Positions 10,218 through 59,809 of a stretch of DNA of 64,000 nt are shown one piece after another. The notes beneath the pieces were generated by a model. The model had not been told where the DNA came from and searched no databases. It saw only the letters and a list, made by a program, of their open reading frames with translations. The translations under genes and the position numbers were made by a program. The stretch is from positions 7,687,185 through 7,751,184 of the forward strand of contig NZ_JAZHRR010000001.1 in assembly GCF_036924515.1 (NCBI RefSeq). The letters are read 5' to 3'. The stretch's first letter is position 1, and each line of letters starts with the position of its first letter. The DNA comes from Bradyrhizobium sp. AZCC 1610. GTDB taxonomy: Bacteria; Pseudomonadota; Alphaproteobacteria; Rhizobiales; Xanthobacteraceae.

Positions 10218-10336
10218 GGTGGCCTCGCAGTTCGCAGACGGCTGGCAGAGGATGCGCAGCGCCGGAAGTGCCCTGATACGCGACGCACGATCGACCGACC
10301 GGTGTCCTGTCGATGGTGCCAGTTCTACCGTCGCCG

Positions 10337-42610: not shown

Positions 42611-42789
42611 TGCTCTCAGGCCTTGCATTCCCGGTGAAATAGACTATATGGGCCATATTCGAATAATCGCTCTGCCTTGTTGACCGAACCGAAAACCGGC
42701 TCCTTTCCCCAAGACATCGTTAAATCGGATCAAGCCTGCGCGGAGGTCGTGCAGGCAAAAGCGCTTTCGCGCATCTTGGAGATAGTTAC

Positions 42790-42999
42790 ATGGCTACCGG
42801 AACAGTTAAGTGGTTCAACGCGACCAAGGGTTTTGGCTTCATTCAGCCCGATGATGGTGGAACGGACGTTTTCGTTCACATTTCGGCCGTCGAACGCGCA
42901 GGTCTGAGCTCGCTCAATGAAGGTCAGAAGATCTCGTTCGAAGCGAAGAAGGACCCGATGCGCGGCAAGACCAGCGCCGAGAACCTTCGCGTCGACTAA
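42790..42999 (+). CDS. csp: cold-shock protein
   Basis: This 69-residue CspA-family protein folds as a five-strand OB barrel and binds single-stranded RNA and DNA. Both nucleic-acid-binding motifs are present: KGFGFI (RNP1) and VFVHIS (RNP2). The transcript likely has a long 5' untranslated region (from about 42640), as in other csp genes, with TTGGAG as ribosome binding site. A strong terminator follows. No function beyond general RNA chaperoning can be inferred. Confidence 0.93.
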
Positions 43000-43062
43000 A
43001 GGTTGCCGATTCGGGATTTCCACGGATGTACTGGGATCCTCTGATTGGCCTCTGATACAAGA

Positions 43063-43091
43063 GCCCGCCGGTGATGAACCGGCGGGCTTTT
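43063..43091 (+). terminator. rho-independent terminator of the csp gene
   Basis: A 9-base stem (gcccgccgg / ccggcgggc) with a 7-base loop is followed by TTTT. It lies 64 bases after the csp stop and ends 25 bases before the stop of the convergent acyl-CoA synthetase. Confidence 0.85.
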
Positions 43092-43115
43092 CGTTTGTCG
43101 CATGCCGGCGCGCGA

Positions 43116-44669
43116 TCATGAAGCAATGGCCGCTTTGTCGGTCGGCTTCGGCGCGCTGAAATTCTTTCGCAATGTCGGCTTGTGAATTTTCCCCGTGGCG
43201 TTGCGCGGCAGGGCGTCGACGAACTCGATCAGGCGCGGACATTTGAACCGCGCCAGATTGGTCTGGCAGTGCGCATGGATCTCCTCCGGCCGGAGCGTAT
43301 GGCCGGGCTTGACCGCCACGATCGCCATGCCGACTTCACCCCATTGCTCGTTCGGGATACCGATCACGGCGGCCTCGGCGATTGCCGTGAGCTGATGCAG
43401 CACGCTCTCGACCTCGGCCGGATAGACGTTCTCGCCGCCGGAAATGTACATGTCCTTCCAGCGGTCGACGATGTAGTAGAAGCCTTCTTCATCGACGCGT
43501 GTGGCATCGCCGGTGTGCAGCCATCCGTCGGTGAAGGACGATTGGTTGGCGTCCGGCCTGTTCCAGTAGCCCGGCGTGACGTTCGGTCCCTTGACCCAGA
43601 GCTCGCCGAGCTCGCCGACATCCGCATCCGTCCCGTCCGGGCGAACGATCCGCACTTCCGTATGCAGCACCGGCTTGCCGGACGAGCCGGCCTTGCGCGC
43701 GGCGTCTTCCTTGTCGAGCGTGAGCACGGCCGGACTGGTCTCGGTCATGCCGTAACCCTGCTGCAGGGCGACGCCGCGGGCTTCCCATATTTTCAGCAGC
43801 GGCACCGGCATCGGCGCGCCGCCGACGCCGCCGATCACGAGCCGGCTGAAATCGGCCGTTGCGAATAACGGATGCTGCGACATGAACTGGTAGATCGCGG
43901 GCACGCCGAAGAACTGGTTGATGCCGTATGTGGGATCGCTGATCAGCTGCAGCGCGAGAGCGGGATCGAACGCGCGCATGATCAGCACGGTGCCGCCGGC
44001 ATGCAGCACCGGATTGGTGTAGCAATTCAGCCCGCCGGTGTGGAACAGCGGCAGCACCGTGAGCAGTACCGACGATGGCGAGATATAGGCGGGGCCGCCG
44101 AGATTGACGCAGTTCCAGAACGTCATGCCATGGGTGATGATCGCGCCCTTGGGCAAGCCGGTGGTGCCCGAGGTATACATGATGGTCGAGATATCGTCAT
44201 GCGTGACATGTTCGAACCGGTCGAGCGGCCTGGATGTGTCGATCGCCGCTTCATAGGAGCCATCAGGTCCGAGCAATAGCGCTGACGAAACGTTGCAGAG
44301 CTTTGCGACCGTCAGCGCAACTTCGGCGAGATCAGTGTCGTGGATCATCACCTTCGGCGAGGAATCGCCGACGATGAACTGCAATTCGGGAACCGTAAGC
44401 CGCGTGTTCAGCGGCAGGAATACCGCGCCGATCCGACCGCAGGCGAACTGCACCTCGAGCGTATCTGACGTGTTCAGCGCCAGCACAGCGACGCGGTCGC
44501 CGCGCGTGACGCCGAGTTTGTCGCGCAGATGGGTGGCAAGACGCGAAATCCGCGCATCGAACTGCGCGTAGGAAAGCCGGCGTTCGCTGGCGAGGTCGAT
44601 GGCAGCGATCTTGTCCGGCGTGCGGCGGCCGAAATGCGCAATCCAGTCGTAATGGCGAACCGACGACAT
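43116..44669 (-). CDS. AMP-forming acyl-CoA synthetase
   Basis: This 517-residue ANL-superfamily ligase activates a carboxylic acid as acyl-AMP and then acyl-CoA. Motifs are MYTSGTTGLPKG (P-loop), YGMTETSP, the GDA TRVDEEG/YYIVDRWKDM region, and the C-terminal lysine in NATGKIHKPTL. The ATG at 44669 has GGAGGAAGC upstream; the longer frame runs into a repeat. Fatty or aromatic acids are likely substrates. It stands between the csp gene and the accessory region, separated from the other acyl-CoA genes at 58.5 kb by the inserted DNA. Confidence 0.9.
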   Translation of the reverse strand: MSSVRHYDWIAHFGRRTPDKIAAIDLASERRLSYAQFDARISRLATHLRDKLGVTRGDRVAVLALNTSDTLEVQFACGRIGAVFLPLNTRLTVPELQFIVGDSSPKVMIHDTDLAEVALTVAKLCNVSSALLLGPDGSYEAAIDTSRPLDRFEHVTHDDISTIMYTSGTTGLPKGAIITHGMTFWNCVNLGGPAYISPSSVLLTVLPLFHTGGLNCYTNPVLHAGGTVLIMRAFDPALALQLISDPTYGINQFFGVPAIYQFMSQHPLFATADFSRLVIGGVGGAPMPVPLLKIWEARGVALQQGYGMTETSPAVLTLDKEDAARKAGSSGKPVLHTEVRIVRPDGTDADVGELGELWVKGPNVTPGYWNRPDANQSSFTDGWLHTGDATRVDEEGFYYIVDRWKDMYISGGENVYPAEVESVLHQLTAIAEAAVIGIPNEQWGEVGMAIVAVKPGHTLRPEEIHAHCQTNLARFKCPRLIEFVDALPRNATGKIHKPTLRKNFSAPKPTDKAAIAS

Positions 44670-44820
44670 GCTTCCTCCACGTCCGGCGGTCTTGCGCCGC
44701 CGGTTTTGCTCGATGGCATTCTGTCCAGTAGATGAGGCGTCATATGGGGACACTGTCTTGCGTGGAGTAGCTGGGGCGGGGATTGGTGGGGCGGTTCCGG
44801 GCGGTGCCGCCCAACAGGCG

Positions 44821-44906
44821 CCGTCATTGCGAGGAGCGTAGCGACGAAGCAATCCAGACTTTCCTGCGCCGCACGATGGATTGCTTCGCTACGCTCGCAA
44901 TGACGG
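44821..44906. repeat. interspersed repeat (CCGTCATTGCG family)
   Basis: An 86-base near-perfect palindrome: ccgtcattgcgag...gaagcaatcca on the left and tggattgcttcg...ctcgcaatgacgg on the right. It matches the ends of the elements at 39159-39280 and 63527-63637. Confidence 0.75.
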
Positions 44907-45000
44907 TGAGTGGCTCCAGCGCCCAATTAATCTCAATCGGCAAACACGACTTCACGATCTCGCGGCCTGATTTGCCCGAGGCTTGCTATCGAATTTCCTC

Positions 45001-45440
45001 AACCCTCCAGTCAGAGGGCGCAGGGAATGCCGGGTGCACGCTGCACCCGCGGTCTCGTGTGCAATAGGCACAAAAAATGCGCACACGAGCATACAGGGCA
45101 GCGGAGGCATCCGACATTCCCTGCGCAATGGCTTTACGGCTTATATCGTGCTCTCCCCGGCGGGCCGGGCTCGTTGTCACCGTCGCCTCGCGGATATCGC
45201 GCTCGATCCAATTGGATCGATGCGCAACGCGAGACTTGACGCCAGCATCGGGGCGTCAGGACCACACGACTTCGCCGTACGCATCAGCACCGTTCGTCAA
45301 AGGCACATCCACGTCCACCGCATCCCATCCCGCGCTTGTGACGATCGCGAAACGCCCCTCGTACCGGGACGGGACGAAATCGATATATTGCTGATTTGGC
45401 CTCGTCGTCAAGTAAAATTCGGAAAATCCGAAATCCGCAC
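45001..45440. repeat. probable Bradyrhizobium multi-copy intergenic element
   Basis: The stretch beginning gcgcagggaatgccgggtgc and continuing through ctccccggcgggccgggctc is, as far as I recall, a sequence repeated many times in Bradyrhizobium genomes. There it gives rise to spurious hypothetical proteins in several frames. Only one copy is in this window, so the repetition is from memory. It abuts the restriction operon. Confidence 0.45.
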
Positions 45441-45537
45441 TTGTGTTGCTGGAGCGCCGAGATATCCTTCGGCCGCTTCGGTCCAGAAAATCGCAGTTGG
45501 CCTTGTTGCTGTAAAACCTATAGACGGTTAGTAAGGG

Positions 45538-45555
45538 ACTCACTCGTCCGTGAGT
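45538..45555. promoter_or_regulatory. inverted repeat upstream of hsdR
   Basis: Perfect 6-base arms actcac / gtgagt flank 6 bases, 39 bases before the hsdR ATG. It could be an operator for the restriction operon; there is no controller-protein gene nearby. Confidence 0.25.
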
Positions 45556-45594
45556 TGTGATGCTGTCGGCGACTAGGGAAACGCAGATCGTTAA

Positions 45595-48132
45595 ATGAAG
45601 GAGGCCACCGCCCGCATAAAAATAAACAAGCTGCTTGAAGCAGCGGGCTGGCGTTTTTTCTCGGACTCAAAAGGGCCAGCGAACGTCCAGCTTGAACCAA
45701 GCGTCGCACTCACAAAGCATACCCTCGATAATCTTGGTGAGAACTTCGAGAAGGTCTCCAAAGGCTTCATCGATTTCCTGCTGCTCAACGAAAAGGGGTT
45801 TCCGTTCATCGTCCTCGAAGCGAAGGCGGAAGACAAGAATCCGCTCGTTGGCAAGGAGCAGGCGCGGAAGTATGCGAAGTCTCAAAATTGTCGCTTCGTC
45901 ATACTCTCCAATGGAAACCTGCACTACTTCTGGGACCTCGAAAGGGGCAATCCCTACGTCATCACGAGTTTTCCAACCCCGGTCTCCGTTACCGGCTACC
46001 AGAAAAGCGTCCCTAACCCAAAATGCCTCATCGAGGAAGTCGTCGAAAATGACTACGTGGCACTCACGCAGCGACCCAACTATGCCTCCGAGGCCGCCTG
46101 GAAAAGCGATGCCGAGCGCCCTCGGTTCATCGAGCTAAACGGACTTCGTTTCCTTCGCCCGTACCAGAAGCGAGCCATTGTGGCCATTCAGCAAACAGTG
46201 GCGAAAGGTGGCGACCGCTTTCTCTTGGAAATGGCCACTGGTACCGGGAAAACGCTCACCTCGGCTGCGATCATCAAACTGTTTCTTCGGACGGGCAATG
46301 CCCGCCGTGTGCTTTTCCTGGTAGACAGGCTCGAGCTGGAGGACCAAGCACTAAAAGCTTTCAGAAAGGTGCTCGCAAACGACTACAAGAGCGTCATCTA
46401 CAAAGAGAACCGCGATGACTGGCGTCACGCCGAAATCGTTGTCTCCACCGTCCAGTCGCTGCTCTTCAACAATAAATACCACCAGCTCTTTTCGCCCACC
46501 GACTTCGATCTCGTCATCTCTGACGAAGCGCACCGTTCTATCGGCGGCAATGCCCGCGCCGTCTTCGATTACTTCATCGGCTATAAACTCGGCCTTACAG
46601 CTACTCCCCGCGACTACCTCAAGAAATTTGTTAAAGATAAGTCCACGAGCAAAGATCCTCGCGAGTTCGAGCGCCGTCTGTTGCTCGATACCTACCGGAC
46701 TTTCGGCTGCGAGGACGGCCAGCCCACTTTCCGATACTCGCTGCTCGATGGCGTCAAAGACGGCTACCTCGTCAACCCAACCGTCGTAGACGCCCGCAGC
46801 GAAGTGACCACCCAGCTTCTGTCGGACGGGGGCTTTGTCGTCGAGTTCAAGGACGAGGAGGGGGACGACCAGAAGGAAACATACAAGCAACGACAATTTG
46901 AGAAGCGGTTTTTCTCGCCTGCCACCAATCAGCTCTTTTGCAAGGCCTTCCTGGAGAACGCCCTGCGCGATCCGATCAGCGGTGAGATTGGCAAGTCGAT
47001 CATTTTTGCCGTGAGCCAGAACCATGCGGCCAAGCTGGCGCAGATTCTGAACGGGATGGCAGACCGTATATTCCCCGGTAAATATCAATCGGACTTTGCC
47101 GTTCAAGTCACGTCGCATGTTGACGGTGCGCAGCAATACACGATCAACTTTGCAAACAATAATCTGCTTGGATCAGCGAATTTTATCCCCACTTATAAAA
47201 CCAGTAAGGCCCGCGTCTGCATTACCGTCGGCATGATGACCACCGGTTATGATTGCCCGGATATCCTCAATTTGGGCCTTTTTCGTCCGATCTTCTCTCC
47301 AACGGACTTCATTCAAATCAAGGGGCGCGGAACTCGCAAGCACGACTTCCGGGAGCAGCTTTTTGACGAGACGATAAGGGAGAGTGTGAAGGAGCCACAG
47401 AAATCCGGATTCAAGCTGTTCGACTTCTTCGCAAACTGCGAATATTTCGAGGAAGAATTCGATTACGACCAGGTTATCAAGCTTCCCAAACCGAAATCCG
47501 GGACCGGTGAAGGAGGCGAGGAAGCTACAGGTGGCGGCTCCACGGGAGCCATTTACGAGCACCTCGACGACGACATTCTTCTCACGCTCAAAGAGGAGGA
47601 TATCGGCCACGGGGGCATGAGGATTGATCGAGAATTTTACGCTAGGTTCGAGGATGTCGTGCGTGAGAATGCTTTCGTCGCGGCCAGCGTTGAGGCTGGT
47701 GAGTGGGATCGCGTCATCGATTACTTGAACAAGGAAATTTTCGACAAGCCGAGTGAATACTACTCCCTTGAGAAGCTACGGAGAGCTGCAGGTGTAGATC
47801 GGCGCCTCACGCTCCGTGAAATACTCGAAAAAATCTTTGGTTTGATTCCACGTTTCAAATCCAAGGACGATCTCCTGGAGGAGGAGTTCTCAAAGTTTGT
47901 TGCTGACTACAAGCCCGACGAAGCCGGGGCCATTCCGGCCATCAAGAACTATTTCAAGGCCTATGCTGCAAGCGATCAGATTCGTCACATCATTGAGTCC
48001 GGTCACCTGACCGATTTGGCCACGAACCCCATTTTCTCGACGAGAGAATTTAGGGCCGTGCCCGCGAAATACCGGAAGCTCATCCCTGAATACGTCAAGG
48101 ACTATGTCTCCTTGAACCAGTTCGTCACCTAG
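45595..48132 (+). CDS. hsdR: type I restriction enzyme R subunit (HsdR)
   Basis: This 845-residue protein is the translocating and cutting subunit. The N-terminal nuclease domain is recognisable by Asp60 and Glu75-x-Lys77 in FIDFLLL...IVLEAK (PD-(D/E)xK type). The SF2 helicase motor has Walker A ATGTGKT (214-220), the DEAH box at 310-313, motif III LTATP, and motif VI QIKGRGTRKH. An acidic C-terminal region follows (EEEFDYDQ..., KEEDIGH). It is a short form of HsdR, like EcoAI-type enzymes. The stop is 8 bases before the methylase-specificity gene. AT content by eye is higher than in flanking genes, fitting horizontal transfer. Confidence 0.92.
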   Translation: MKEATARIKINKLLEAAGWRFFSDSKGPANVQLEPSVALTKHTLDNLGENFEKVSKGFIDFLLLNEKGFPFIVLEAKAEDKNPLVGKEQARKYAKSQNCRFVILSNGNLHYFWDLERGNPYVITSFPTPVSVTGYQKSVPNPKCLIEEVVENDYVALTQRPNYASEAAWKSDAERPRFIELNGLRFLRPYQKRAIVAIQQTVAKGGDRFLLEMATGTGKTLTSAAIIKLFLRTGNARRVLFLVDRLELEDQALKAFRKVLANDYKSVIYKENRDDWRHAEIVVSTVQSLLFNNKYHQLFSPTDFDLVISDEAHRSIGGNARAVFDYFIGYKLGLTATPRDYLKKFVKDKSTSKDPREFERRLLLDTYRTFGCEDGQPTFRYSLLDGVKDGYLVNPTVVDARSEVTTQLLSDGGFVVEFKDEEGDDQKETYKQRQFEKRFFSPATNQLFCKAFLENALRDPISGEIGKSIIFAVSQNHAAKLAQILNGMADRIFPGKYQSDFAVQVTSHVDGAQQYTINFANNNLLGSANFIPTYKTSKARVCITVGMMTTGYDCPDILNLGLFRPIFSPTDFIQIKGRGTRKHDFREQLFDETIRESVKEPQKSGFKLFDFFANCEYFEEEFDYDQVIKLPKPKSGTGEGGEEATGGGSTGAIYEHLDDDILLTLKEEDIGHGGMRIDREFYARFEDVVRENAFVAASVEAGEWDRVIDYLNKEIFDKPSEYYSLEKLRRAAGVDRRLTLREILEKIFGLIPRFKSKDDLLEEEFSKFVADYKPDEAGAIPAIKNYFKAYAASDQIRHIIESGHLTDLATNPIFSTREFRAVPAKYRKLIPEYVKDYVSLNQFVT

Positions 48133-48140
48133 GAACCCGA

Positions 48141-50684
48141 ATGCTCGACACTGACACTAAACGGCGCATCGATACGGCGCGTGACATCCTCGTGGGCAAG
48201 GTCCCCGATCCCAAGTCCCAAGTCGAACAGATCACCATCGCTCTGATCTACAAGTTCATGGATGACATGGACGCTGAAGCTGAGGAGTTGGGAGGTAAGC
48301 GCAAGTTTTTCACTGGCGACTTCGCCCGATTTGGCTGGGCCCAACTGATGCGTACGGGCATTGGAGGTCATGAAATGCTCGGCCTCTATGCCGAAGGCAT
48401 CTCCACGATGCCGGAGAATCCTGGCATACCGCTGCTTTTCCGCGACATTTTCAAGAACGCCTACCTCCCGTACCGCGACCCCGAGACGCTCAAGGCATTT
48501 TTAAAAATCATAGACGAATTCACTTACGATCACAGCGAACGCCTCGGCGACGCATTCGAGTATCTCCTGTCGGTCCTCGGCTCGCAGGGCGATGCCGGAC
48601 AGTTCCGTACGCCGCGCCACATCATTGATTTCATTGTTGAGATCCTCGATCCGAAAAAGAACGAGAGCGTGCTTGATCCAGCGTGCGGCACAGCAGGCTT
48701 TTTGATTTCAGCTTATAAGCATATTCTGAAAGCAAATAGCTCACCCACGGCGGTTAGCTCGAAAGCCATCGACGAAAATGACAAGGCGGCGCTTGACTCA
48801 TCCAGAATCCCTCCATCTCGCGGTGATCTGCTCACGCCCGAAGAGCGCGGTGCACTCGCTAGCAACTTTAAGGGTTACGACATCTCGCCAGACATGGTGC
48901 GCCTTTCTCTGGTGAATCTTTATCTCCATGGTTTTTCCGATCCGCACATTTACGAATACGACACACTAACCTCTGAGGATCGTTGGAATGAATTTGCCGA
49001 CATAATCCTTGCCAACCCGCCTTTCATGTCTCCCAAGGGAGGAATCAAGCCTCACCGCCGCTTCTCTATTCAGGCCAAGCGCAGCGAAGTTCTTTTTGTG
49101 GACTACATGGCCGAGCATCTCACGCCTTGTGGGCGCGCGGGCATTATCGTCCCGGAGGGTATCATTTTCCAGAGTCAGACCGCTTACACCGAGCTGCGTC
49201 GAATGCTCGTCGAGAATTCATTAGTCGCTGTCGTCTCGCTGCCGGCAGGATGCTTCAATCCCTATTCTGGAGTTAAGACGTCCATTTTGCTCCTCGACAA
49301 ATCTCTCGCCAAAGATGCCGAAACTATCGCCTTCTTCAAGGTGGAGAACGACGGCTTCGGCCTCGGTGCCCAGAGGCGAGCCATTGGAGGAAGCGAGCTC
49401 CCGCAGATCAGGGCTGAACTTAACGCCTACCTTCATGCCTTGCGAAACAAGCAATCTACAGCCGACCTTCGACTCACCTGCGGTCTAATTGTGCCGAAAG
49501 AAAAGATCGTTGAAAACGGCGACTATAATCTTAGTGGCGAGCGTTATCGAGAATTGATCGATCGCGAAACAACATTTCCAAAGGTTAAGCTTGGCGAGCT
49601 ACTCAAACTGGAATTCGGCACGCGTATCACCAAAAAAGATTACGAAGGAACGCTCTTTCCGGTCTACGGAGGAGGAGGGGAAAGCTTTCGTACCGATTCG
49701 TTTACTCGGGAAAACGATATCGTGATTTCGCGTTTTGCGATGTCAGCCGAATGCGTCCGAGCGGTCGCAGGTAAGTTCTACTTGCTCGATTCAGGGTTCA
49801 CGTTTTCGATTTCGGAAAAATTCATAGGCCTTGCGACAAAGACGTTTGTCGCTCAAGTTTTGCTAAACAGCCAAGATCGTATCTATCGCTGCGCTCGAGG
49901 TCATGCTCAAAAGAACATTGACATAGACGCATTCAAGGCTCTCGAAATCCCCCTGCCACCGTTGGCGCTGCAAAATGAGATCGTGGCCGAGATCGAGGGC
50001 TATCAGAAAGTCATCGGCGGCGCCCGGACTGTCCTCGACCACTACCGCCCGCACATCCCGATCCATCCTGAATGGCCGATGGTTGGGCTCGGCGAAGTAA
50101 TCGAGAGCAAGCCTAAGAATGGGTATTCCGGTAGCCCGGTGGATCGTCCCACGAACGTGAAAGTATTGTCCCTGAGCGCGACGACGTCGGGAAAGATGGA
50201 CCTATCGAAATTTAAGTATCTCGATGAGGACATTCCATTGGAGTCTTCTTGTCGATGTCGGCGCGGGGATATCTACCTCCAACGAGGCAACACAAGGGAA
50301 TTGGTGGGTACGGCCGCGATATTCGACGCAGACGAACAGAATTTTATTTACCCCGACCTGATGATTCGCGTTCGAGCGGATGAATCAAAGATTCGAAGCA
50401 GCTATTTGCTAACCGTTCTTCAGAGCGAGCCCGTTCGCGAGTTCATTGTCAGAAACGCCGTAGGCGCTGCCGGCAGCATGCCCAAGATCAATCAGGGTAT
50501 CGTCGAGCGTATTCCGGTTCCGCTTCCACCGCTCGCCACGCAGGAAGCCCTTGTAGCCGAGATCGAAGCCGAGCAAGCCTTAGTCGCTGGTAACCACGAA
50601 CTGATCATCCGCTTCGAACAAAAGGTCCAATCGACCCTTGCTCGAATCTGGGGCGAACAAGAGTCAGTCGTTACGGAGGCATAA
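48141..50684 (+). CDS. hsdMS: type I modification-specificity fusion protein (HsdM-HsdS)
   Basis: This 847-residue single chain combines two subunits that are normally separate. Residues 1-460 are the N6-adenine methylase: helical N-domain, SAM motif DPACGTAGF (179-187) and catalytic NPPF (292-295). Residues about 470-847 form the specificity part, with two target-recognition domains (starting FPKVKLGELL and WPMVGLGEVI). Each is followed by the conserved spacer-helix sequence (EIPLPPLALQNEIVAEIE and PVPLPPLATQEALVAEIE), so the half-sites are defined by two different TRDs. An AGGAACCCGA site precedes the ATG. It methylates DNA at a bipartite site that HsdR reads as self. Confidence 0.92.
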   Translation: MLDTDTKRRIDTARDILVGKVPDPKSQVEQITIALIYKFMDDMDAEAEELGGKRKFFTGDFARFGWAQLMRTGIGGHEMLGLYAEGISTMPENPGIPLLFRDIFKNAYLPYRDPETLKAFLKIIDEFTYDHSERLGDAFEYLLSVLGSQGDAGQFRTPRHIIDFIVEILDPKKNESVLDPACGTAGFLISAYKHILKANSSPTAVSSKAIDENDKAALDSSRIPPSRGDLLTPEERGALASNFKGYDISPDMVRLSLVNLYLHGFSDPHIYEYDTLTSEDRWNEFADIILANPPFMSPKGGIKPHRRFSIQAKRSEVLFVDYMAEHLTPCGRAGIIVPEGIIFQSQTAYTELRRMLVENSLVAVVSLPAGCFNPYSGVKTSILLLDKSLAKDAETIAFFKVENDGFGLGAQRRAIGGSELPQIRAELNAYLHALRNKQSTADLRLTCGLIVPKEKIVENGDYNLSGERYRELIDRETTFPKVKLGELLKLEFGTRITKKDYEGTLFPVYGGGGESFRTDSFTRENDIVISRFAMSAECVRAVAGKFYLLDSGFTFSISEKFIGLATKTFVAQVLLNSQDRIYRCARGHAQKNIDIDAFKALEIPLPPLALQNEIVAEIEGYQKVIGGARTVLDHYRPHIPIHPEWPMVGLGEVIESKPKNGYSGSPVDRPTNVKVLSLSATTSGKMDLSKFKYLDEDIPLESSCRCRRGDIYLQRGNTRELVGTAAIFDADEQNFIYPDLMIRVRADESKIRSSYLLTVLQSEPVREFIVRNAVGAAGSMPKINQGIVERIPVPLPPLATQEALVAEIEAEQALVAGNHELIIRFEQKVQSTLARIWGEQESVVTEA

Positions 50685-50688
50685 GCAA

Positions 50689-51411
50689 ATGGAAGAGGCG
50701 GCTGAACTCGCCAACTATCTGCCACTCTCATTCAAAACGCCAAAGGAGCAGGAATATATCGAATTTCTCTGGGACGCCTTCGAAATGAACTACACGAACG
50801 GTAAGTACCAATTTGCTTTCCTTGCCTATCATATGCTCACCATGAGCTTCGTCTATTTTAACATTTGGCAGATCAAGCAGACTGAGCCGGGCGACTTCGA
50901 GAAGGGTCTTATCGGATTTGGGCGCGATGAGAAAACCTTGATCGAGGCGACTTCACCGTTTGCATTCAGCATTGTCCCTGAACGCACGATGTTGCGCTTC
51001 CTAAAGCTTATCGCCTGCGACAATGGAAAGATTGGCACCTATGTTAAGCTGGTGGATGACCGCAACAATTCGGCCCACCCAAATGGCAACATATATTTCA
51101 GCACCCCGGCAGCGGTGGACATCAAGATCACTGAGATTCTCCGCGTCGTGGACGAGATCCAGAGGCATTCAAGACCAGTTATAGAAAGATGTTATCGGGA
51201 ATTTTTGCTCAAGAGCCACGACCCAGACGAACGGGAGTACTCGGAGGCCAGTGATCAAATACGCGAGGCGTTGATCCACGCAAACTATATGTCCCAACGG
51301 GACATAGGCGTTTGTCTTGAGTATAATCTTGGTGATCTTCGCGAGTTCGACGAATTCCCCAGCATTGAAGCGCTTCATCAGCAGCTTCATGCTGCCTACG
51401 GCAATGCTTGA
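50689..51411 (+). CDS. hypothetical HEPN-like protein, third gene of the restriction operon
   Basis: This 240-residue mostly helical protein starts at ATG 50689, with GGAGG inside the end of the methylase gene, four bases after its stop. The notable motif is VDDRNNSAHPNG (Arg125-x4-His130), which matches the R-x4-6-H signature of HEPN ribonucleases, surrounded by predicted helices. No other catalytic motif is seen. HEPN nucleases are frequent partners of restriction systems (PrrC with EcoprrI is the classic case), which supports an anti-phage back-up role. The HEPN assignment rests on this motif and on context only; the rest of the chain is unlike any family I know. Confidence 0.6.
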   Translation: MEEAAELANYLPLSFKTPKEQEYIEFLWDAFEMNYTNGKYQFAFLAYHMLTMSFVYFNIWQIKQTEPGDFEKGLIGFGRDEKTLIEATSPFAFSIVPERTMLRFLKLIACDNGKIGTYVKLVDDRNNSAHPNGNIYFSTPAAVDIKITEILRVVDEIQRHSRPVIERCYREFLLKSHDPDEREYSEASDQIREALIHANYMSQRDIGVCLEYNLGDLREFDEFPSIEALHQQLHAAYGNA

Positions 51412-51474
51412 ACGACGACTTGCTTTCTGGGGCGCCAGTCTATCGGCCGCCGCCATCGACGGCGTGGCGCCTCC

Positions 51475-52125
51475 TCACGAACCCCGCAGCAATTCGCTGA
51501 TCACGTTGAACTGGTTGTCGCGAAACTCGACCATATAGCCGTCCTTGATCGGACGGTAGTCCGTCGGCGATGTGTTGAGCTTGACGCCTGGCATCAGCAT
51601 CGGCAGCGCTACGCCCTTGAGGTTGGCCGCCTGCGCCATGATGTTTTGGCGACTCAGGTCGTCTTTGCACTGCGTCAGCACCACGACCAGCGCCTGGGCA
51701 ACCATGTAGCCATAGCCTGCCGCCAGATTGGCTGGATCGATATTGGGCAGCCGCGCCTTCATGAAATCCCGGTAGGCGACCAGATCGGGGTCGGTGGAGT
51801 CGGCCGCATAAGGTTTTAGCGCCCCGACCGACATGATGCCGGTCGCCGCTTCGAGCCCGGCCGGCACCATCACCGTTTCCTTGTTGGCGCAGCCTGAGGA
51901 GATGAAACGCATCGGACGCCAGCCGGTTTCGTAGGCTTTTCGGATCGCTTGCGCGCACGCGCGCGGCGTCACGCTGTAGATCAGGAAGACGTCGGCCTTG
52001 GTGTTGGCGAGCGTGAGGATCTGCGAATCCACCGTGGGATCGGCGACCTCGAAACTCGCAGCCATCGCGATCATCTTGTCGGCGTCCGCTGACGCGACCG
52101 AGGACATCGCGTCAGGCCGAATTCG
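51475..52125 (-). pseudogene. C-terminal half of a branched-chain amino acid-type binding protein
   Basis: About 210 residues match the second lobe of a LivK-like (type I periplasmic) binding protein: ASFEVADPTVDSQILTL, ADVFLIYSVTPRACAQAIR, the RFISSGC core and a C-terminal EFRDNQFNVISELL. The stop codon is intact. There is no signal peptide or first lobe; homology begins near 52100 (DADKMIAM...) with no proper start. The matching first lobe lies at 57690-58285 on the same strand. Together they are one gene split by about 5.6 kb of other DNA. Confidence 0.75.
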
Positions 52126-52151
52126 CAGCATGGTGTTCGGTTTGTCGTGTA

Positions 52152-52370
52152 CTAGGTCGGCTTGCGCACGGCAGTGGAAACGGTCTCGTGTGCACGCACC
52201 GGGGTGCAGGTCGTAACTACGAGCGCAAACCGGCTGCACTGCCAGTCAGCGCCGAGCGCGGCGCTGGTGGGTGATGTCAGGTTGACCGACAGTAATGCCG
52301 CTACGCAGGCAAACATCACGTACGCCGCGATTAGCACCGCTACCTTGTGGGCCCTTGGGTGGGAAATCAT
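52152..52370 (-). CDS. small hypothetical membrane or exported protein (72 aa)
   Basis: ATG 52370 is preceded by AGGAGCCAAGG. The 72-residue product has one hydrophobic segment (VAVLIAAYVMFACVAALL), likely a signal anchor, and two cysteines after it (WQCSRFALVVTTC). It follows the OpgC-like gene by 34 bases in the same direction. The frame continues upstream to 52505, overlapping that gene, but this start has the better site. Function unknown. Confidence 0.5.
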   Translation of the reverse strand: MISHPRAHKVAVLIAAYVMFACVAALLSVNLTSPTSAALGADWQCSRFALVVTTCTPVRAHETVSTAVRKPT

Positions 52371-52404
52371 GGCCTTGGCTCCTGTACGATGGCCCCCTTG
52401 TGAT

Positions 52405-53790
52405 CTAATTCGCATCCTGACCCACATTTTTCGCTGGTGGCCCGAAGGCGTATGCGATTGCTGGCGCTGGATCAGCACCGCAGCCGGACTTGCGCACCGG
52501 AGCAAACAACATCTTTATTCGATCAACCTCGTCGGCACGGGCAAGCAGCGTGGGCGGAATGTCAACGCCGAGCGCCTTGGCTGTCTTGAGATTGATGACC
52601 AGCTCAAACTTGGTTGGCCGCTCGACGGGCAGGTCGGCGGGCTTCGCGTGCGGCTGCTGCCTGGGTTTGATCTTGATCAAGTTCAGCAGCGTCGCCGCCA
52701 GAATCATCACCAGGACGCCACCAACACTGAGCGCGATCTGCATCGTCAGCCCCTCCGAGATGTCGAGCAGCGCCAGGTGGCTGGCGAACGTCAGCAGAAC
52801 GCCGAGGCAGTAGATTGGCAGCGAATTCTGGCCACAGCGGATCGCGCCGCGCATCACCGCCGTCGTCAGCCCTCGCCAATTGTGAGGTACGAACCACGCT
52901 GCCAAAACCGCAAGGGCCAAAAAATGCAGCAGTCGCAATGGATCGAGATTCGATTTGTCCATCGGGTAAAGCAGCGTCAGCAGCGCCTGCGGGACCAGCG
53001 CTTCCAGCGGTTTGATGCTCGAGCTCAATGCGATGCTGAGGCTGAACACCAGATAGAGAACGGCAGCCACAAGCGCGGTACGTGAGATCACCCACTGCCG
53101 GAATCTCTTGCCCTCGATCATCCACCACGCGCCAAGCACGACCAGCAGCTGCCAAGCCAGCGGATTGAAGGCCCAGTGGCCGTTCGGCCACGCCGGGACG
53201 GTCCAGCCGAAGGCATGCACCAGCGCATAAAGCGCCAGCGAGGCGCCAAGCGCCACATTCGGCACTCGCAGCAGCAGCCACAGCAGCGGCGCGAACAAGA
53301 GGTGAAGAAGCACGAAGACCGGCAACACGTCGGCATTGACTAGACGGTATTGCAGGACCGCTGCGCGCGCGAGCGTCGCGCCCGGATGGTCCAGCAAGAT
53401 ACGCGTATTGCTCTCGTCAGCAAGACGGCCACCGCCTGCGAGGTGAACCATGATGGCGCAGGCGAGCGTGAGCAGCAGAAATGCGACATAAATGTCCCAG
53501 CTTCGGTGCAGCGTCCGGCTGACCACTCCGGTCCAGCCCTCGCAGCGCCACGCCTTGCCGTAGGCCAGTGCGCAGGTTACGCCCGAGACGAACATGAATA
53601 CTTCCGCGGCATCGCTGAAGCCGTAGTTCCGCAGCGTCAGCCAAGTTCCGATGTTGTTGGGGACATGGTCAAGAAAGATGCACCACAGTGCGATGCCGCG
53701 GCAGGCGTCAATGCGCAGGTCGCGGCCCTGGCCTTTCAGCTCCGGCAGCTCGCCGATCAATAGCTTTGGGGTGGCGATTCGATCGTGCAT
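52405..53790 (-). CDS. OpgC-like membrane acyltransferase with foreign C-terminal tail
   Basis: The first about 385 residues (from ATG 53790) match the OpgC family, multi-pass inner-membrane proteins that succinylate osmoregulated periplasmic glucans. The N-terminal [21 protein letters not shown] and about 10 membrane segments fit. After residue about 385 the chain reads [20 protein letters not shown] and [18 protein letters not shown]. This is the C-terminal end of the ABC_sub_bind binding-protein family, unrelated to OpgC. The usual stop of that tail (E-V-I-E-stop) appears destroyed by one extra base near 52525, which adds 40 unrelated residues. The start is uncertain; the frame is open to 53961. 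Confidence 0.65.
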
Positions 53791-54396
53791 CTGGTTGCCC
53801 CATCCGACGTGCGAGCACGCTTCAAGAGGGACCGAATTGATAAAAACATCGCCGCCGCACTGCCGGATCGTACCAACGCCGCAGTTTGGCGCTGCTTCAC
53901 GCCGAACCCGGCGACGAAAGCTATTGCGATAACGATCATATGGCGGCGCTTGGTAGAACATCCTAGCGCGTGAGGCTATTGACGATCATCGTTCAACGGC
54001 ACAGCGCGTCAATCAGCCGGAGGTCCACACAGAGAGGTTCCTAGGTCCTATGATCAAGGTACCGTACAGATCTCGGCATCAATTGACATCCGTCAGACGC
54101 ATCATGGACGTTCACCATTGCGCATGGACGAAGGAGACTCTGAGCCCCGCGAGTCTCGTCGTCCGCACTCGCTTTTTCGGTGTCCTACCGTGAGGTGATT
54201 ACAATTGCAGCACACAACGGCATTCGGCTCCTACCTTGAGTGGCTGACGGTGGACCGCTGGTTGGGCCAAGGATGGAGGATGGATGGTTTCGGGAGCCAG
54301 TCTTCCGACAGCCTCTTCCTCGCCAAAGACCTGAAGGTGGGTGTATGATTTTCCTTTATTTGGATCTCCGTGCAATGGGATGACGGAGAGCTTTTC
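53791..54396. other. intergenic region, no gene supported
   Basis: This 606-base stretch lies between divergent OpgC-like and response-regulator genes. Frames on either strand lack ribosome binding sites or similarity. It lies within the DNA that splits the binding-protein gene and probably contains the regulator promoter. Confidence 0.4.
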
Positions 54397-55059
54397 ATGA
54401 AAGTTCTTATTGTCGACGACCATGCATTGATTCGCGAGGCGTTGCACGCTGTCCTGAAACAACTGAAGCAAGAAGCCGTCATATTTGAAGCTTCGAACAG
54501 CCGTCAGGCAATGCACATAGTCGAGGAACATCCCGACATCAGCCTCATTTTACTTGATATCAATTTGCCGGATCGAGATGGCTTCTCTGTCCTCCGCGAA
54601 CTGCGAGACCGCTATCCGACCATTGCTATCATCATTCTTTCGTCCTCGGATGATCAAGACACAGTCAAGCGCGCTTTCAAACTTGGCGCTCTGGGTTTCA
54701 TCCCGAAAACTACCAAACGAGAGGTCATGCTTAACGCCATTAAGTTAGTGTTCTCCGGCGGTATTTACATTCCCTCGGAAATTCTGGAGGAAGCAACGTC
54801 TCCGCGGCTTACAAACGAGCTAGCGACGCGCGACTCTCTTAAAGGTCTCGGGTTGACCGATCGGCAGATTGAAGTGCTTGCGCTCCTGATGAAGGGAAAA
54901 AGCAACAAGGTCATTGCCAAGACCCTCAATATGGCAGTGCCGACAGTGAAGAACCACATCACGGTCGTTCTCAAGGCGCTCGGCGTAACGAGCCGCACCG
55001 AGGCAGTAATAAAAGTAGGAAAAATGGGCTGGGAATCGTCGCCGAAATCTGAATCATAA
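54397..55059 (+). CDS. LuxR/NarL-type response regulator
   Basis: This 220-residue two-domain regulator has a receiver domain with the acidic pair VDD (7-8), phospho-acceptor Asp54 in ILLDINLP and Lys104 in FIPKTT. Its LuxR-type helix-turn-helix is at residues 155-215 (LTDRQIEVLALLMKGKSNKVI and VPTVKNHI). ATG 54397 has GGAGAG upstream. It is convergent with the hybrid histidine kinase, their ends overlapping by 6 bases, which suggests the kinase is its partner. Confidence 0.92.
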   Translation: MKVLIVDDHALIREALHAVLKQLKQEAVIFEASNSRQAMHIVEEHPDISLILLDINLPDRDGFSVLRELRDRYPTIAIIILSSSDDQDTVKRAFKLGALGFIPKTTKREVMLNAIKLVFSGGIYIPSEILEEATSPRLTNELATRDSLKGLGLTDRQIEVLALLMKGKSNKVIAKTLNMAVPTVKNHITVVLKALGVTSRTEAVIKVGKMGWESSPKSES

Positions 55060-57159
55060 AGCCGGCCCGGTATCTCTCCTATCGTCATGATCCATAAAGA
55101 GCTCTTGCATGACAGCGCGGAGCCGCATTGGGTCGACAGGCTTGTGCAGTAAAACGTATCCTCTATCCTTAGCGTCACGTAATGGTTCAGGTGCCGTATC
55201 GCCGCTGATGAGAATAGCTGGAATTGATGAACCAAACGCCGCATTGATTTGTTCAATGGCTCGGATCCCCGTCTTTCCGCTCGCAAGATGATAGTCCGAG
55301 ATTATAAGATCGGGGCGTTGTTGGCGCTCAGCAAGTTGGATAAGTGCCGCTTCGTCGGATCCGGCGGTAAGGACGGAGTATCCCCATTTGCCAAGCAATC
55401 CGCCCGTTCCCTCCTGCACAATTGGGGCATCGGCAATAACAAGAATTACCCTGCCTTCGACCGCAAAGGCTACGGGGTGAGGTGAGTCGACGGGCTCGGT
55501 GGACGTGACGCATTCATCGGCCATCGGAACCAGGATTGCGAATCGCGAACCTCGGCCCACAGTCGAAGCTAAGTCGATTTGATGGTTGAGAAGTAGGCGA
55601 AGCCTGTCGACAATAGCCAAGCCGAGCCCCAGGCCGCCGTACCGGTACCGTTCTGGGGCAGCAAGTTGAAAAAACTCGCCAAAGATATTCTGCTTCTGAT
55701 CCTCAGGAATGCCGGGACCGCTATCCCATACTTCGATACGCAACATTTCACCGCGCCGACGACAGCCGACAATGATCCCGCCGCGCAATGTATAGCGCAC
55801 AGCATTGGATACCAAGTTGAAGAGTATGCGTTCGAGCAGCATGGCGTCGCTCCTCACCCAGGAGTCACTTCGCCTAACGCGTAGACGCAAGCCCTTTGCT
55901 AGCGTTGCCTGATCAAACGTCGTCTCAATTTTTTGCAACAGGCGCGCGATCGGGAATTCAGTCAGTTTGGGTGTAAGGATCCCAGCATCGAGTCTGGACA
56001 TATCCAGGAGCGAATTGAACATTTCATCCATTTCTTTGCGCGTTGCATCGACCAGCTCGATCGTCCTTGTCCTTTCCCCCGATCTGAGCGGCGTGCGCAG
56101 CTGTGCAATAAACAAGCCTAGTGCATGTAATGGCTGCCGCAAATCGTGGCTTGCCATGGCAAGAAAGCGCGATTTTGCTGCATTTGCGAGCTCAAGCTCT
56201 TGCGTACGCTCTGCGACCTTCCGTTCTAGTTCGATCTGCGCGCGGCGCAGACGTTTCTCCCCCTTCTTGCGCACCTCGACGTCGGCGCTCAACAGCAAGC
56301 TTGGAACGGTAATACTGATCAAGAACATCAACACCAGCAGGAATGAAGCGTTGAGATCCGCGGTCGTGAAGGGGCCGCCGCCCGTGAGTGTCCCCCAAAT
56401 CGTGATGCCGGAAAGCACCAGCGCAACCGTTGCGGTGTCACGTGGACCGCGGCGCAGCGCCGCCCACAACATTGGCAGGATCGCAAGAAAACCCAGCGGA
56501 TCTCGGCTCGGCGTTTGCTCGATCAGGGGACTGAAAGCAATGAGTCCAACGGCCGCCGCTGTTGCGAGGACGCCGACCGTCTCCAAAAAGTCATTGCGGT
56601 TGAAAGCATGGAAGTGGCTTGATGCCCAAAGCACGATAACGGGGGCAATGACCAGCGCGCCGGTCACATCTCCCAGCCACCATGTGACCCAGGCGTTCGC
56701 GAAATTCGTCCGTTCGATGTACCCGGCAGTTGCCAGGCTGGTCAGTCCAATGCTGGCGCTGATCGGCGTCGCGATCACGAAGCAAATCAGAGCAAACTTC
56801 GCGACAGAATTTGGCGTCGAAAAAGTATTACATCCGCTCGACCATCGATTGATCAGGTAAGCGCCAACAACCGCTTCAAGAGAGTTGCCGGTAGCAATCG
56901 CAATTGCGGTGGCAACCGAGCCGGCGGTCATCGCATTGGCAATCACCGCCGCCGCGAAAATTGCGGGCCAAGTCCGATATCCCCACAACAGCACCGCCGC
57001 CAGCGCGACACCCGTCGGCGGCCAAATTGGCGTTGCACTGGGATGAAGAGAGGCGAGAGCAAGGCCGGCTTTTGCCAGGGCGAAATAGATCACTCCAATT
57101 GCGACCAGACCGCCGGCATAGCTAGTGCCTCGGCGGAAATTTAACCCGGACCAAGCCAT
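55054..57159 (-). CDS. MASE1-domain hybrid histidine kinase
   Basis: This 701-residue inner-membrane sensor starts at ATG 57159, which avoids overlap with the DUF3551 gene. Residues about 10-295 hold eight membrane segments of MASE1 type, including the PIWPPTGVALAA motif. A coiled linker leads to the HisKA domain with His338 in MASHDLRQPLHALG, the HATPase (N-box NLVSNAVRYT, DSGPGIPE and GGLGLGLAI), and a C-terminal receiver with Asp622 in LIISDYHL. The receiver's acidic pocket is atypical: the usual DD is VIADAP. It probably signals to the neighbouring response regulator. The ligand is unknown. Confidence 0.9.
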   Translation of the reverse strand: MAWSGLNFRRGTSYAGGLVAIGVIYFALAKAGLALASLHPSATPIWPPTGVALAAVLLWGYRTWPAIFAAAVIANAMTAGSVATAIAIATGNSLEAVVGAYLINRWSSGCNTFSTPNSVAKFALICFVIATPISASIGLTSLATAGYIERTNFANAWVTWWLGDVTGALVIAPVIVLWASSHFHAFNRNDFLETVGVLATAAAVGLIAFSPLIEQTPSRDPLGFLAILPMLWAALRRGPRDTATVALVLSGITIWGTLTGGGPFTTADLNASFLLVLMFLISITVPSLLLSADVEVRKKGEKRLRRAQIELERKVAERTQELELANAAKSRFLAMASHDLRQPLHALGLFIAQLRTPLRSGERTRTIELVDATRKEMDEMFNSLLDMSRLDAGILTPKLTEFPIARLLQKIETTFDQATLAKGLRLRVRRSDSWVRSDAMLLERILFNLVSNAVRYTLRGGIIVGCRRRGEMLRIEVWDSGPGIPEDQKQNIFGEFFQLAAPERYRYGGLGLGLAIVDRLRLLLNHQIDLASTVGRGSRFAILVPMADECVTSTEPVDSPHPVAFAVEGRVILVIADAPIVQEGTGGLLGKWGYSVLTAGSDEAALIQLAERQQRPDLIISDYHLASGKTGIRAIEQINAAFGSSIPAILISGDTAPEPLRDAKDRGYVLLHKPVDPMRLRAVMQELFMDHDDRRDTGPAL

Positions 57160-57185
57160 CTGATTTGCTCGTGAGGCACGCGGCG

Positions 57186-57434
57186 TCACCGACGACGCGG
57201 CCTGGCAGGAATTGTCAGGACGGCGGCGTTCGCGAGATAAGGATTGACCCCGCAGTAGGCCGTGCGGCCCGATGCGGTGGCCTGACATTGCTGGTAGCTA
57301 GTGAATCCGCAATCGCCCGCGCCAGCATAGTCGTCGCCTTGCAGGCAATACCGGTACTCGCTAGCCACGACCGGGGCGACGCTGGTTGCGAAGATGGTCG
57401 CAGACGTCGCGAGGGCAAGAAAGAGGGTACGCAT
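57186..57434 (-). CDS. DUF3551 small secreted protein
   Basis: This 82-residue protein starts at ATG 57434 with GGGGGAG upstream. A signal peptide (LFLALATSATIFATSVAPVVA) precedes a short cysteine-containing domain: YRYCLQGDDYAGAGDCGF, QQCQATASG and AYCGVNPY. This four-cysteine pattern is the DUF3551 family, common and often multi-copy in Bradyrhizobium. Function unknown. It lies just upstream of the kinase gene in the same direction. Confidence 0.85.
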   Translation of the reverse strand: MRTLFLALATSATIFATSVAPVVASEYRYCLQGDDYAGAGDCGFTSYQQCQATASGRTAYCGVNPYLANAAVLTIPARPRRR

Positions 57435-57689
57435 TTTTCTCCCCCACATTGAAGTGCCCCAGTTGACGCTGGGACCAACCGTGCGGCGCCGATGTGAACC
57501 GGCTCACATCGGCGGATGCAAATTTTTGAGATCGACCGCGCAGATTGGTAAGGAAGCCTGTCAAGCTCGCGCCAGCAAATCGAGCGACAATCCAACTTAC
57601 CTTGTTGGGCGGGAGCGGTTCTGTGAGGGCATGCGGGCGGGGCGATGTCGGAGATGGGTCACAGGACTAAGCCGCTCGCGCGGTAGGGC

Positions 57690-58285
57690 GCTGCGGCGAG
57701 CCGCCGCGCAGATAATCCTTTCCAGCGTCGTCGTTCTGATAAAGGATCGCAAAGCGCGCATTGGGATTTTTTGCGCGGGCGAAGCGCACCTCGATGCCGG
57801 CTTCCTCGACATAGTTGGGCGCCCAGGGCAGCGCCATCAGCCAGGGTTGATGGGTCGGATCGTTCCATTTCGAGGCGGAGCTGATCAGGAACAGATGCGG
57901 CACCTTGGCGCCGTTGAGATACTTCGCGGTCGCAGAACTCGGCGCGGTGCCCATGGTTCCGAACATGAACGCGACGCCGTCATTCTCGACCAGGCGGCGC
58001 GTTCGCCTCGACCGTCTTCGGCGGCGAGAAGCCATCGTCGAGCGAGACCATGTTGAGCTTGCGTCCGTTGACGCCGCCTTTCTCGTTGACCAGGTCGAAA
58101 TAGGCCGCAAAAGCCTTGCCGGTGACACTGAGCGCCGACGCCGGGCCGCTATATGGCATGATGTTGCCGAACTTGATCTCGGTGTCGGTAATGCCGGGTT
58201 GGTGGGCGGAGGCTGTAGTCGTTGCAGTAAGGGAGAACAGCGCTGCAAAGAGAACGGCGGAGACGAACTTGCTCGATCGGATCAT
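57690..58285 (-). pseudogene. N-terminal half of a branched-chain amino acid-type binding protein, frameshifted
   Basis: The ATG at 58285 with GGGGAGGATG opens onto a signal peptide (FVSAVLFAALFSLTATTTASA) and the first lobe of a LivK-like protein (GITDTEIKFGNIMPYSGPAS). A one-base insertion at about 58002 breaks the frame after KTVEA; the next frame continues RRLVENDGVAFMFGTMGT up to NDDAGKDYLRG, where homology ends. The remainder of the same protein is at 51475-52125. At the junction only about 8 codons are missing. Confidence 0.75.
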
Positions 58286-58497
58286 GCTTCATCCTCCCCG
58301 GCGAATGGCCGCTGACCTCTTATTGGCTTTGAGCCAAGGCTAGGGCATGCTCATTGAGCCGGTCTTGCGTTCAGTTGCTGGACGCGGCATGCGTCGGAAA
58401 ACGACGGGCGCAACAGATTGTCTGCAGATAATGCCAGCCGCTCAACGCAAGTTTGAGCGAGCCAAATCGGGGCATCGTGACTCCGCGGGAGGAAACC

Positions 58498-59652
58498 ATG
58501 CTGGAGCGAACGAAAGTGCAAAGCCCGTTCTACACGGCCGAACACGAAGCGTTCCGCGATGTGATGCGCCGCTTCGTGGCGCGCGAGATCGAGCCCTATG
58601 CCCATGAATGGGACGAGGCCGGCGAGTTTCCGCGCGAGCTTTATCGGAAAGCTTCCGAGATCGGGCTGTTCGGGCTCGGCTTTCCGGAGGAATATGGCGG
58701 TGTCGCCGCCGACCAGTTCATGAAAATCGTGGCATCGCAGGAGTTGGCGCGCGCCGGCGCCGGCGGGATCAGCTCGAGCCTGATGAGCCATACCATCGGT
58801 TCGCCGCCGATCGCGCGGGCCGCGAGGCCTGAGGTCAAGGCCCGGGTGCTGCCGCAGGTGCTGTCGGGTGAGAAGATTTCCGCGCTCGCGATCACCGAGC
58901 CCAGCGGCGGCTCCGACGTCGCCAATCTCCGCACCAAGGCGCGGCGTGACGGCGGCCATTATGTCGTCAGTGGCGAAAAGACTTTCATCACCTCGGGCAT
59001 GCGGGCCGATTACCTGACGGTCGCGGTGCGGACCGGCGGCGAGGGACCGGGCGGGGTTAGCCTGCTCCTGATCGAGGGCGACACGCCGGGCCTGTCGCGC
59101 ACGAAGCTGAAGAAGATGGGCTGGTGGGCGTCCGATACCGCCACGCTGCACTTCGATGAATGCCGGGTGCCGGCCGAAAACCTGATCGGCGAGGAGGGGC
59201 AGGGCTTCAAGATCATCATGCACAATTTCAACAGCGAGCGCATGGGCATGGCTGCGAGCTGCACGGCCTATGCCCGCGTCTGCGTCGAGGAGGCGATTGC
59301 CTATGCCAAGGAGCGCAAGACGTTTGGCAAGCCGATCGCGCAGCATCAGGTCATCAGGCACAAGCTGGTCGACATGGCGCAGAAGGTCGCGGCGTCGCAG
59401 GCGATGCTGGAAATGCTGGCATGGCGGCTCGGGCAAGGCGAAAGCCCCGTCGCCGAAATCTGCATGATGAAGAACCAGGCGACCCAGACCATGGCGTTCT
59501 GCGCCTCCGAGGCGGTGCAGATTTTTGGCGGCGCCGGCTTCATTCGTGGCGTCAAGGTCGAGCGCATCTACCGCGAGGTCAAGGTCAACGCCATCGGCGG
59601 TGGCACTGAGGAGATCATGAAGGATCTCGCCTCAAGGCAGATGGGGTTGTGA
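58498..59652 (+). CDS. acyl-CoA dehydrogenase
   Basis: This 384-residue FAD enzyme of the acyl-CoA dehydrogenase family starts at ATG 58498, with GGGAGGAAACC upstream. Signatures include ALAITEPSGGSDVANLRT and FGKPIAQHQVIRHKL. The usual C-terminal catalytic Glu of medium-chain enzymes (YEGT) is replaced by GGGT. A glutamate in the FNSERMGMAA segment aligns with the base of isovaleryl-CoA and long-chain enzymes (LER), so a branched substrate is plausible. It leads the 58.5-63.5 kb cluster. It is divergent from the split binding-protein gene. Confidence 0.9.
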   Translation: MLERTKVQSPFYTAEHEAFRDVMRRFVAREIEPYAHEWDEAGEFPRELYRKASEIGLFGLGFPEEYGGVAADQFMKIVASQELARAGAGGISSSLMSHTIGSPPIARAARPEVKARVLPQVLSGEKISALAITEPSGGSDVANLRTKARRDGGHYVVSGEKTFITSGMRADYLTVAVRTGGEGPGGVSLLLIEGDTPGLSRTKLKKMGWWASDTATLHFDECRVPAENLIGEEGQGFKIIMHNFNSERMGMAASCTAYARVCVEEAIAYAKERKTFGKPIAQHQVIRHKLVDMAQKVAASQAMLEMLAWRLGQGESPVAEICMMKNQATQTMAFCASEAVQIFGGAGFIRGVKVERIYREVKVNAIGGGTEEIMKDLASRQMGL

Positions 59653-59663
59653 CGTTCTTTCTC

Positions 59664-59776: not shown

Positions 59777-59809
59777 CAAGTGAAAATACCAATTGGAGCT
59801 TGGCCAAAA

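Follow-up and report, generated by a model that had tools for sequence, protein, structure and literature searches.

What might a small third gene, closely joined to the genes of a type I restriction-modification (R-M) system, contribute to that system? The question is raised by the final 64 kb of the 7.75-Mb one-contig chromosome of Bradyrhizobium sp. AZCC 1610 (the whole stretch analysed, hereafter the window), where an hsdR gene and a fused hsdM-hsdS gene (hsdMS) are followed by a gene encoding a 240-residue protein, P0001. Conservation among relatives and structure prediction indicate that P0001 is a stand-alone protein with a predicted HEPN fold. As a whole, the findings are best explained by a HEPN ribonuclease (RNase) acting as the second-line effector of one clade of type I R-M systems, namely that with HsdR and an HsdM-HsdS fusion, a reading to which we assign a probability of about 0.6.

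The third gene closes a type I restriction operon

The operon and its elements are as follows.

45595..48132, plus strand: hsdR, 845-residue restriction/translocation subunit with HSDR_N nuclease region and ResIII/superfamily 2 (SF2) motor
48141..50684, plus strand: hsdMS, N6-adenine methyltransferase (about residues 1-480) fused to a two-domain specificity subunit (about residues 481-847)
50675..50679, plus strand: GGAGG, read from the sequence within the end of hsdMS and likely serving the third gene as ribosome-binding site
50689..51411, plus strand: third gene (P0001), 240 residues, ATG start; predicted HEPN part about residues 8-168, helical C-terminal part about residues 161-240
51061..51078, plus strand: putative HEPN ribonuclease motif R125-N-N-S-A-H130, conserved in relatives

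Pfam and PADLOC matches firmly place the first two genes as type I R, M and S, with M and S fused here. The hsdR product matched ResIII (1.2e-38) and HSDR_N (1.9e-6), and its nearest NCBIfam model was the EcoAI/FtnUII type I R subunit (1.9e-64, under that model's cut-off), while the 847-residue fusion matched N6_Mtase (2.7e-45) and, in two stretches, Methylase_S (1.5e-15). The operon thus holds what identifies a type I R-M system: an HsdR nuclease with SF2 motor, an HsdM N6-methylase and HsdS recognition domains. All three genes lie on one strand, with 8 nt between hsdR and hsdMS and 4 nt between hsdMS and the third gene; the spacing first noticed in a sequence-only reading of this DNA is exact (TAA at 50682-50684, ATG at 50689), and the GGAGG is placed 9 nt ahead of the ATG. 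The downstream neighbour (51475-52239) lies on the opposite strand, and therefore the third gene closes the operon. The closest named relatives of the operon are from Bradyrhizobium, and a search of the genome for P0001 at E 0.001 returned the self match alone, without a second copy.

P0001 has the features of a HEPN protein

The sequence-only reading had taken R125-x4-H130 as a HEPN signature. As evidence in itself the motif was rejected by a shuffling test: Rx4-6H arose in 69% of P0001 shuffles and R[NDH]x3-5H in 14%, so that its occurrence is at chance level, and P0001 holds three Rx4-6H matches (at 125, 170 and 192), among which that at 125 alone is conserved. What goes beyond chance is the conservation of the motif together with operon linkage. 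In aligned relatives, down to about 26% identity, R125 and an N or D after it were found in 290 of 290 sequences and H130 in 288 (P0111 and P0233 have no H at the motif), as had been anticipated for homologues. The alignment is redundant and comprises 21 clusters at 70% identity, across which just four residues are fully conserved, R125 and H130 being two of them.

P0001 matched no family in Pfam, NCBIfam, PADLOC or PHROGs. The weak Pfam matches common to most members of its family are HEPN families, including HEPN_RiboL-PSP (PF18735) and HEPN_Swt1 (PF18731); a distant relative at locus L057, described below, reached 16.7 and 15.1 bits with Pfam HEPN models whose cut-offs are 27.5 and 28.4. 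Sequence searches of solved structures, by single sequence and by profile, gave nothing relevant to P0001. However, predicted models from two distant branches of the family (pLDDT 93.5 and 88.4) had mainly solved HEPN folds as their top matches, the best being the AbiA HEPN domain (PDB 8oz7), and the P0001 model is all helical, as is the HEPN fold. The proposed HEPN identity is supported by these three lines taken together, namely R/H conservation, shared weak Pfam HEPN matches and predicted folds. Two narrower assignments were rejected. PrrC/RloC membership does not fit a 240-residue protein that has no ATPase domain by Pfam and an all-helical model, and a HEPN-MNT toxin-antitoxin pair does not fit a locus with no adjacent MNT gene, hsdMS upstream and an oppositely oriented gene downstream.

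HEPN is linked to the methylase-specificity gene

Relatives were collected as 58 HEPN-led loci, consisting of 55 genome contigs, one plasmid, one record filed as phage and one sister genome. HsdM or HsdS similarity was found upstream on the same strand in 50 of the 58, upstream meaning any such match before HEPN in the fetched stretch (usually up to 8 kb), and the expectation that homologues would mostly lie beside restriction genes was thereby confirmed. In seven of the remaining eight loci the contig starts inside the HEPN gene or at most 1.03 kb from it, although in one of these (L005) an Mrr gene is still visible upstream. The eighth, L054, with 7.7 kb upstream lacking any hsd match and a broken HEPN frame, is the sole locus clearly away from hsdM/hsdS. 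Four loci (L011, L023, L045 and L055) gave an HsdS match but no HsdM match. HEPN directly follows hsdMS in 29 of the 50 loci, with gaps from -1 to 29 nt, mostly -1 or 3, and its frame is full-length in 40 of the 58. Together with seven HsdM-led viral loci (six direct; L107 with an insert, a 385-residue open reading frame (ORF) without Pfam match between hsdM and HEPN), the 65 loci divide into 35 direct, 22 with an insert and eight without an hsd match.

The divergence of the three proteins is correlated: distance matrices gave r values of 0.65 for HEPN-HsdM, 0.65 for HEPN-HsdR and 0.88 for HsdR-HsdM (n = 31, Mantel p 0.001 each). The genome loci span Pseudomonadota, Verrucomicrobiota, Planctomycetota, Acidobacteriota, Bacteroidota, Spirochaetota and other phyla. 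Cluster searches returned 2,728 clusters in one case and 522 in another, and the best 120 rows of each were named 'hypothetical protein' or not at all. Neither HEPN query retrieved a relative from viral contigs; since HEPN does occur in HsdM-led viral loci, such scans miss relatives. When plasmids were searched with the gut HEPN, the Paracoccus copy was once more the sole match, and the gut R-M-S fusion gave two records covering 56-58% of it.

At L057, a HEPN of 30% identity that shares the motif starts 2 nt after a 976-residue HSDR_N + N6_Mtase + Methylase_S fusion, and no separate HsdR match was found in this record. The motor HsdR may therefore be dispensable, with the methylase-specificity part as the constant neighbour. 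From this one record we take as a lead that the methylase-specificity part may be the partner of HEPN.

HEPN is a common but replaceable third gene

The compact HsdR/HsdMS/HEPN operon put forward in the sequence-only reading is real but is not a fixed unit, since HEPN is absent in about half of the sampled HsdM relatives and a variable gene lies between hsdMS and HEPN in many loci. An HsdM tree was built from the window and 54 rows (matches covering 85% of the query) drawn from 74 loci; of its 50 inner branches, 23 are open, and some rows have long branches. On this tree the eight HEPN-less rows need six changes. Other genes occupy the same position: DUF6602 in genome G029, TrlF in E. coli IncF plasmids and, in L102, a metallophosphatase-nSTAND gene, where L105, with a close HsdM (path 0.16), has HEPN and a DUF3644 gene. 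From this patchiness and from the other genes at its position we conclude that HEPN is a common but replaceable third gene.

In L105, HEPN is followed by the DUF3644 gene (9976-11265), and Table 1 of a survey of HEPN proteins shows DUF3644 to overlap a different HEPN clade (PMC3710099). The E. coli IncF segments (L094 7989-15537 and L095 3-7551) encode a related HsdR (64.5%), a short HsdMS (677 residues) and then the TrlF-family gene; that HsdR is carried by 55 enterobacterial plasmid records, and TrlF was seen in the two that were opened, L094 and L095. HsdM-HsdS fusions of just 645-677 residues with one Methylase_S stretch also occur in L021, L030, L040 and L105 besides L094 (L012 has none), compared with two stretches in the window, and such short fusions would presumably have to act as dimers.

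A variable slot separates hsdMS from HEPN in many loci

Other DNA separates hsdMS from HEPN in 21 of the 50 HEPN-led loci with an upstream hsd match, whereas the window copy has no insert. An insert gene with a Pfam or PADLOC match was present in 17 of the 21, and 13 of these are defence-associated by name, a count that leaves out DUF4917 and HATPase_c. Relatives thus carry recognised defence genes inside the R-M operon.

Mrr/PDC-S02: L016, L020
SIR2 and HerA: L028, L051, L055
AAA_13/SMC-type ATPase, PDC-S06 kind or similar: L007, L008, L018, L053
putAbiC: L004
reverse transcriptase (RT) UG13b: L039
two CTD10 genes, one with DUF2326 (PDC-M68B): L023
AAA_21 ATPase: L049
DUF4917: L026, L027, L047
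HATPase_c protein: L045

The L018 slot protein also matched the PADLOC PrrC model weakly (4e-8). The slot genes of L014 (4277-6280, 667 residues) and L046 (6711-7997, 428 residues) had no Pfam or PADLOC match and are candidate new defence genes, so that the slot offers a simple route to such genes. In L006 and L022, HsdM was matched only partly and the gap is uncertain; ORFs in it gave no match. Wherever the insert was recognised, the slot gene is followed next by HEPN, mostly at gaps of a few nucleotides (400 nt in L007). On the HsdM tree, 14 insert rows need nine changes, at least four of them forced by well-supported branches, and slot insertion therefore recurs. A second variable position lies between hsdR and hsdMS, with a KilA-N gene in L006 (4915-5760) and similar gaps in L027, L035, L039, L046 and L052.

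Proposed function and its alternatives

Under the reading that we prefer, P0001 would most likely be a dimeric, metal-independent endoribonuclease that an intact HsdMS/HsdR complex keeps silent. Disturbance of the complex, whether by a phage anti-restriction protein or by damaged or unmodified DNA, would set the protein free to cut cellular RNA and halt growth as a second line behind DNA restriction. HEPN would thereby be one exchangeable module of a defence chassis, in which the third-gene position and the hsdMS-HEPN gap accept other genes, many of them for defence. We infer this back-up role, already suggested in the sequence-only reading, because it is the simplest way to account for operon linkage and an invariant R...H pair, given the precedent of PrrC, a HEPN RNase that a type I complex restrains until anti-restriction releases it (PMC3710099, PMC12707154).

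Several observations weigh against this reading. P0001 contains nothing comparable to the sensor or ATPase domain of PrrC, and its binding to HsdMS is itself presumed. Although AbiA keeps an RNSNPVSH motif, it is reported to lack RNase activity, and mutating the motif did not abolish defence (PMC11077055). Fold scores were middling for helical proteins, and Foldseek by itself was weak against both PDB and viral models, with unrelated proteins ranking first and the best HEPN at rank 3 (E 1.4, probability 0.84). Decay or assembly error has interrupted or shortened the HEPN frame within the contig at four of the 29 direct loci and at six of the 21 with an insert; in two further insert loci the frame is cut by contig ends. 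Among 14 HsdM-led loci of the viral collection, HEPN was found by profile in seven and was absent from six (L103 and L104 having identical HsdM), L108 being cut; with HEPN in 7 of 13 evaluable loci, it is an accessory that the restriction system does not need. A sample of 396 Pseudomonadota genomes contained four with HsdM at 70% identity or more, two with HEPN, one without (G029) and one cut. No P0001 match was found in the 55 enterobacterial plasmid records with 60-80% HsdR, nor a HEPN match in G541 (HsdM 56%). HEPN is also rare, being present in 2 of 398 Pseudomonadota genomes, one plasmid record and one record filed as phage.

The AbiA precedent, in which HEPN with the motif but without RNase activity is needed for dimerisation (PMC11077055), lends some weight to a non-catalytic structural subunit that dimerises or scaffolds HsdMS/HsdR, or binds RNA, without cutting. 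Good conservation of HEPN across phyla and its correlated divergence with HsdM and HsdR would suit such a subunit. However, the presence of R125 and H130 among only four fully conserved residues in 21 clusters is hard to fit to a pure scaffold, and related HsdM-HsdS proteins manage without HEPN; we regard a structural role as rather unlikely. The position of HEPN next after the slot gene, mostly at gaps of a few nucleotides, could instead point to a regulator of slot effectors or to a two-gene toxin system in which the slot gene comes first and HEPN second. This is quite improbable, as there is no slot gene in the window or in 29 of the 50 loci, the slot genes are mutually unrelated and several match known systems (SIR2-HerA, RT UG13b), and the HEPN frame is damaged in the six slot loci mentioned. 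Equally improbable is a passenger gene, either a toxin gene standing on its own or an addiction module, that resides in a defence operon but is functionally unconnected with restriction. A passenger would explain the patchy occurrence among HsdM relatives and the swapping in of TrlF, DUF6602 or metallophosphatase-nSTAND genes. However, just 1 of 58 loci is clearly separate from hsdM/hsdS, and its frame is broken; no antitoxin gene accompanies HEPN in the window, and HEPN divergence correlates with that of HsdM and HsdR.

The second-line RNase reading can be extended to a modular immune chassis, in which HsdR/HsdMS would recognise foreign DNA, the 3' HEPN would be a shared RNase output reading the state of HsdMS directly, and the slot would be a docking place for swapped, unrelated defence effectors under the same sensing. 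HEPN next to the R-M-S fusion of L057, a record in which no separate HsdR was found, bears on this idea. We consider this extended reading possible but doubtful, slightly more so given the HEPN interruptions in slot loci.

Relation to known systems

R-M-linked HEPN genes are already known as a kind, as are defence genes embedded in type I operons (PMC12255303, PMC11411939). The arrangement recalls PrrC in EcoprrI (type IC), a HEPN nuclease that is encoded by a type I operon and backs up restriction (PMC3710099, PMC12707154). In contrast to PrrC, which has an N-terminal ATP-binding cassette (ABC) ATPase, P0001 is a bare 240-residue HEPN protein, and its gene is the last, after the HsdM-HsdS fusion, rather than between hsdS and hsdR. 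If P0001 is a restriction-coupled RNase, these 240 residues without an ATPase would provide a simpler model than PrrC for the restraint and triggering of a suicide nuclease.

In the survey by Anantharaman et al. (2013), 16 or more HEPN clades were tied to R-M systems and a back-up logic was put forward (PMC3710099). Unlike those clades, P0001 matches no Pfam HEPN model, and the fusions described there are with restriction endonucleases, helicases and ATPases, whereas here the linkage is to a methylase-specificity gene. RiboL-PSP-HEPN, the nearest by Pfam, is listed in Table 1 of that survey with endoRNase L-PSP and ParB, not with type I operons. Many members of the P0001 family share weak sequence similarity with PF18735 and PF18731, but no L-PSP domain was found, there is an extra helical C-terminal part and the context differs. 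The AbiA HEPN, unlike P0001, belongs to a reverse-transcriptase-like protein and is reported to be inactive (PMC11077055).

The slot resembles the insertion of DarTG2 into the hsd operon of enteropathogenic E. coli (EPEC; PMC12255303), of TgvAB in Vibrio (PMC11411939) and of PrrC, and a possible recombination hot spot has been suggested for embedded defence genes (PMC12255303). Those genes, however, have been described inside the type I cluster or in the hsdS-hsdR interval, whereas the slot lies between the hsdMS fusion and a 3' HEPN gene. The literature searched held no account of this HEPN family, its tie to an HsdM-HsdS fusion or the slot; the Payne 2024 preprint on embedded defence, outside that search, might cover part of this.

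The operon lies on a segment lacking in sister genomes

Eight sister genomes with both flanks near each other, out of 60 sampled, were compared with the window. By tblastn, no HsdR, HsdM, HsdS or HEPN was found in the fetched DNA of these eight genomes, in which 73 bp to about 20 kb lie between the large flanking blocks. In G417 the blocks ending at 45435 and starting at 51467 (window numbering) are about 260 bp apart, and in G420 those ending at 44678 and starting at 51475 are 73 bp apart.

51412..51474, no strand: right edge of the segment lacking in sister genomes; shared DNA restarts at 51467-51475

The right edge thus falls 55-63 nt past the HEPN stop, which makes HEPN the final gene carried on the inserted piece; the left edge is less sharp. 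The GC content at third codon positions (GC3) is 0.61-0.67 in the operon and 0.74-0.78 in three neighbour genes, a fourth nearby gene having 0.61.

ARAGORN found no tRNA within 40000-60000, and a promoter and terminator scan did no better than chance. Where the window has the restriction operon, the corresponding site in three sister genomes holds a 1143-residue ORF (L135 2060-5491, L136 3597-7028 and L137 6343-9774). The gene to the right of the operon (51475-52404) we take, by its look, to be substrate-binding-protein-like. Its similarity to sister genomes stops at about 52089, and the block 52121-52404 matches elsewhere in some of them; this break indicates a second rearrangement junction at about 52090-52120, and the gene looks truncated. 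Upstream of hsdR, a long imperfect palindrome (44823-44911), seen in the sequence, resembles a dispersed repeat.
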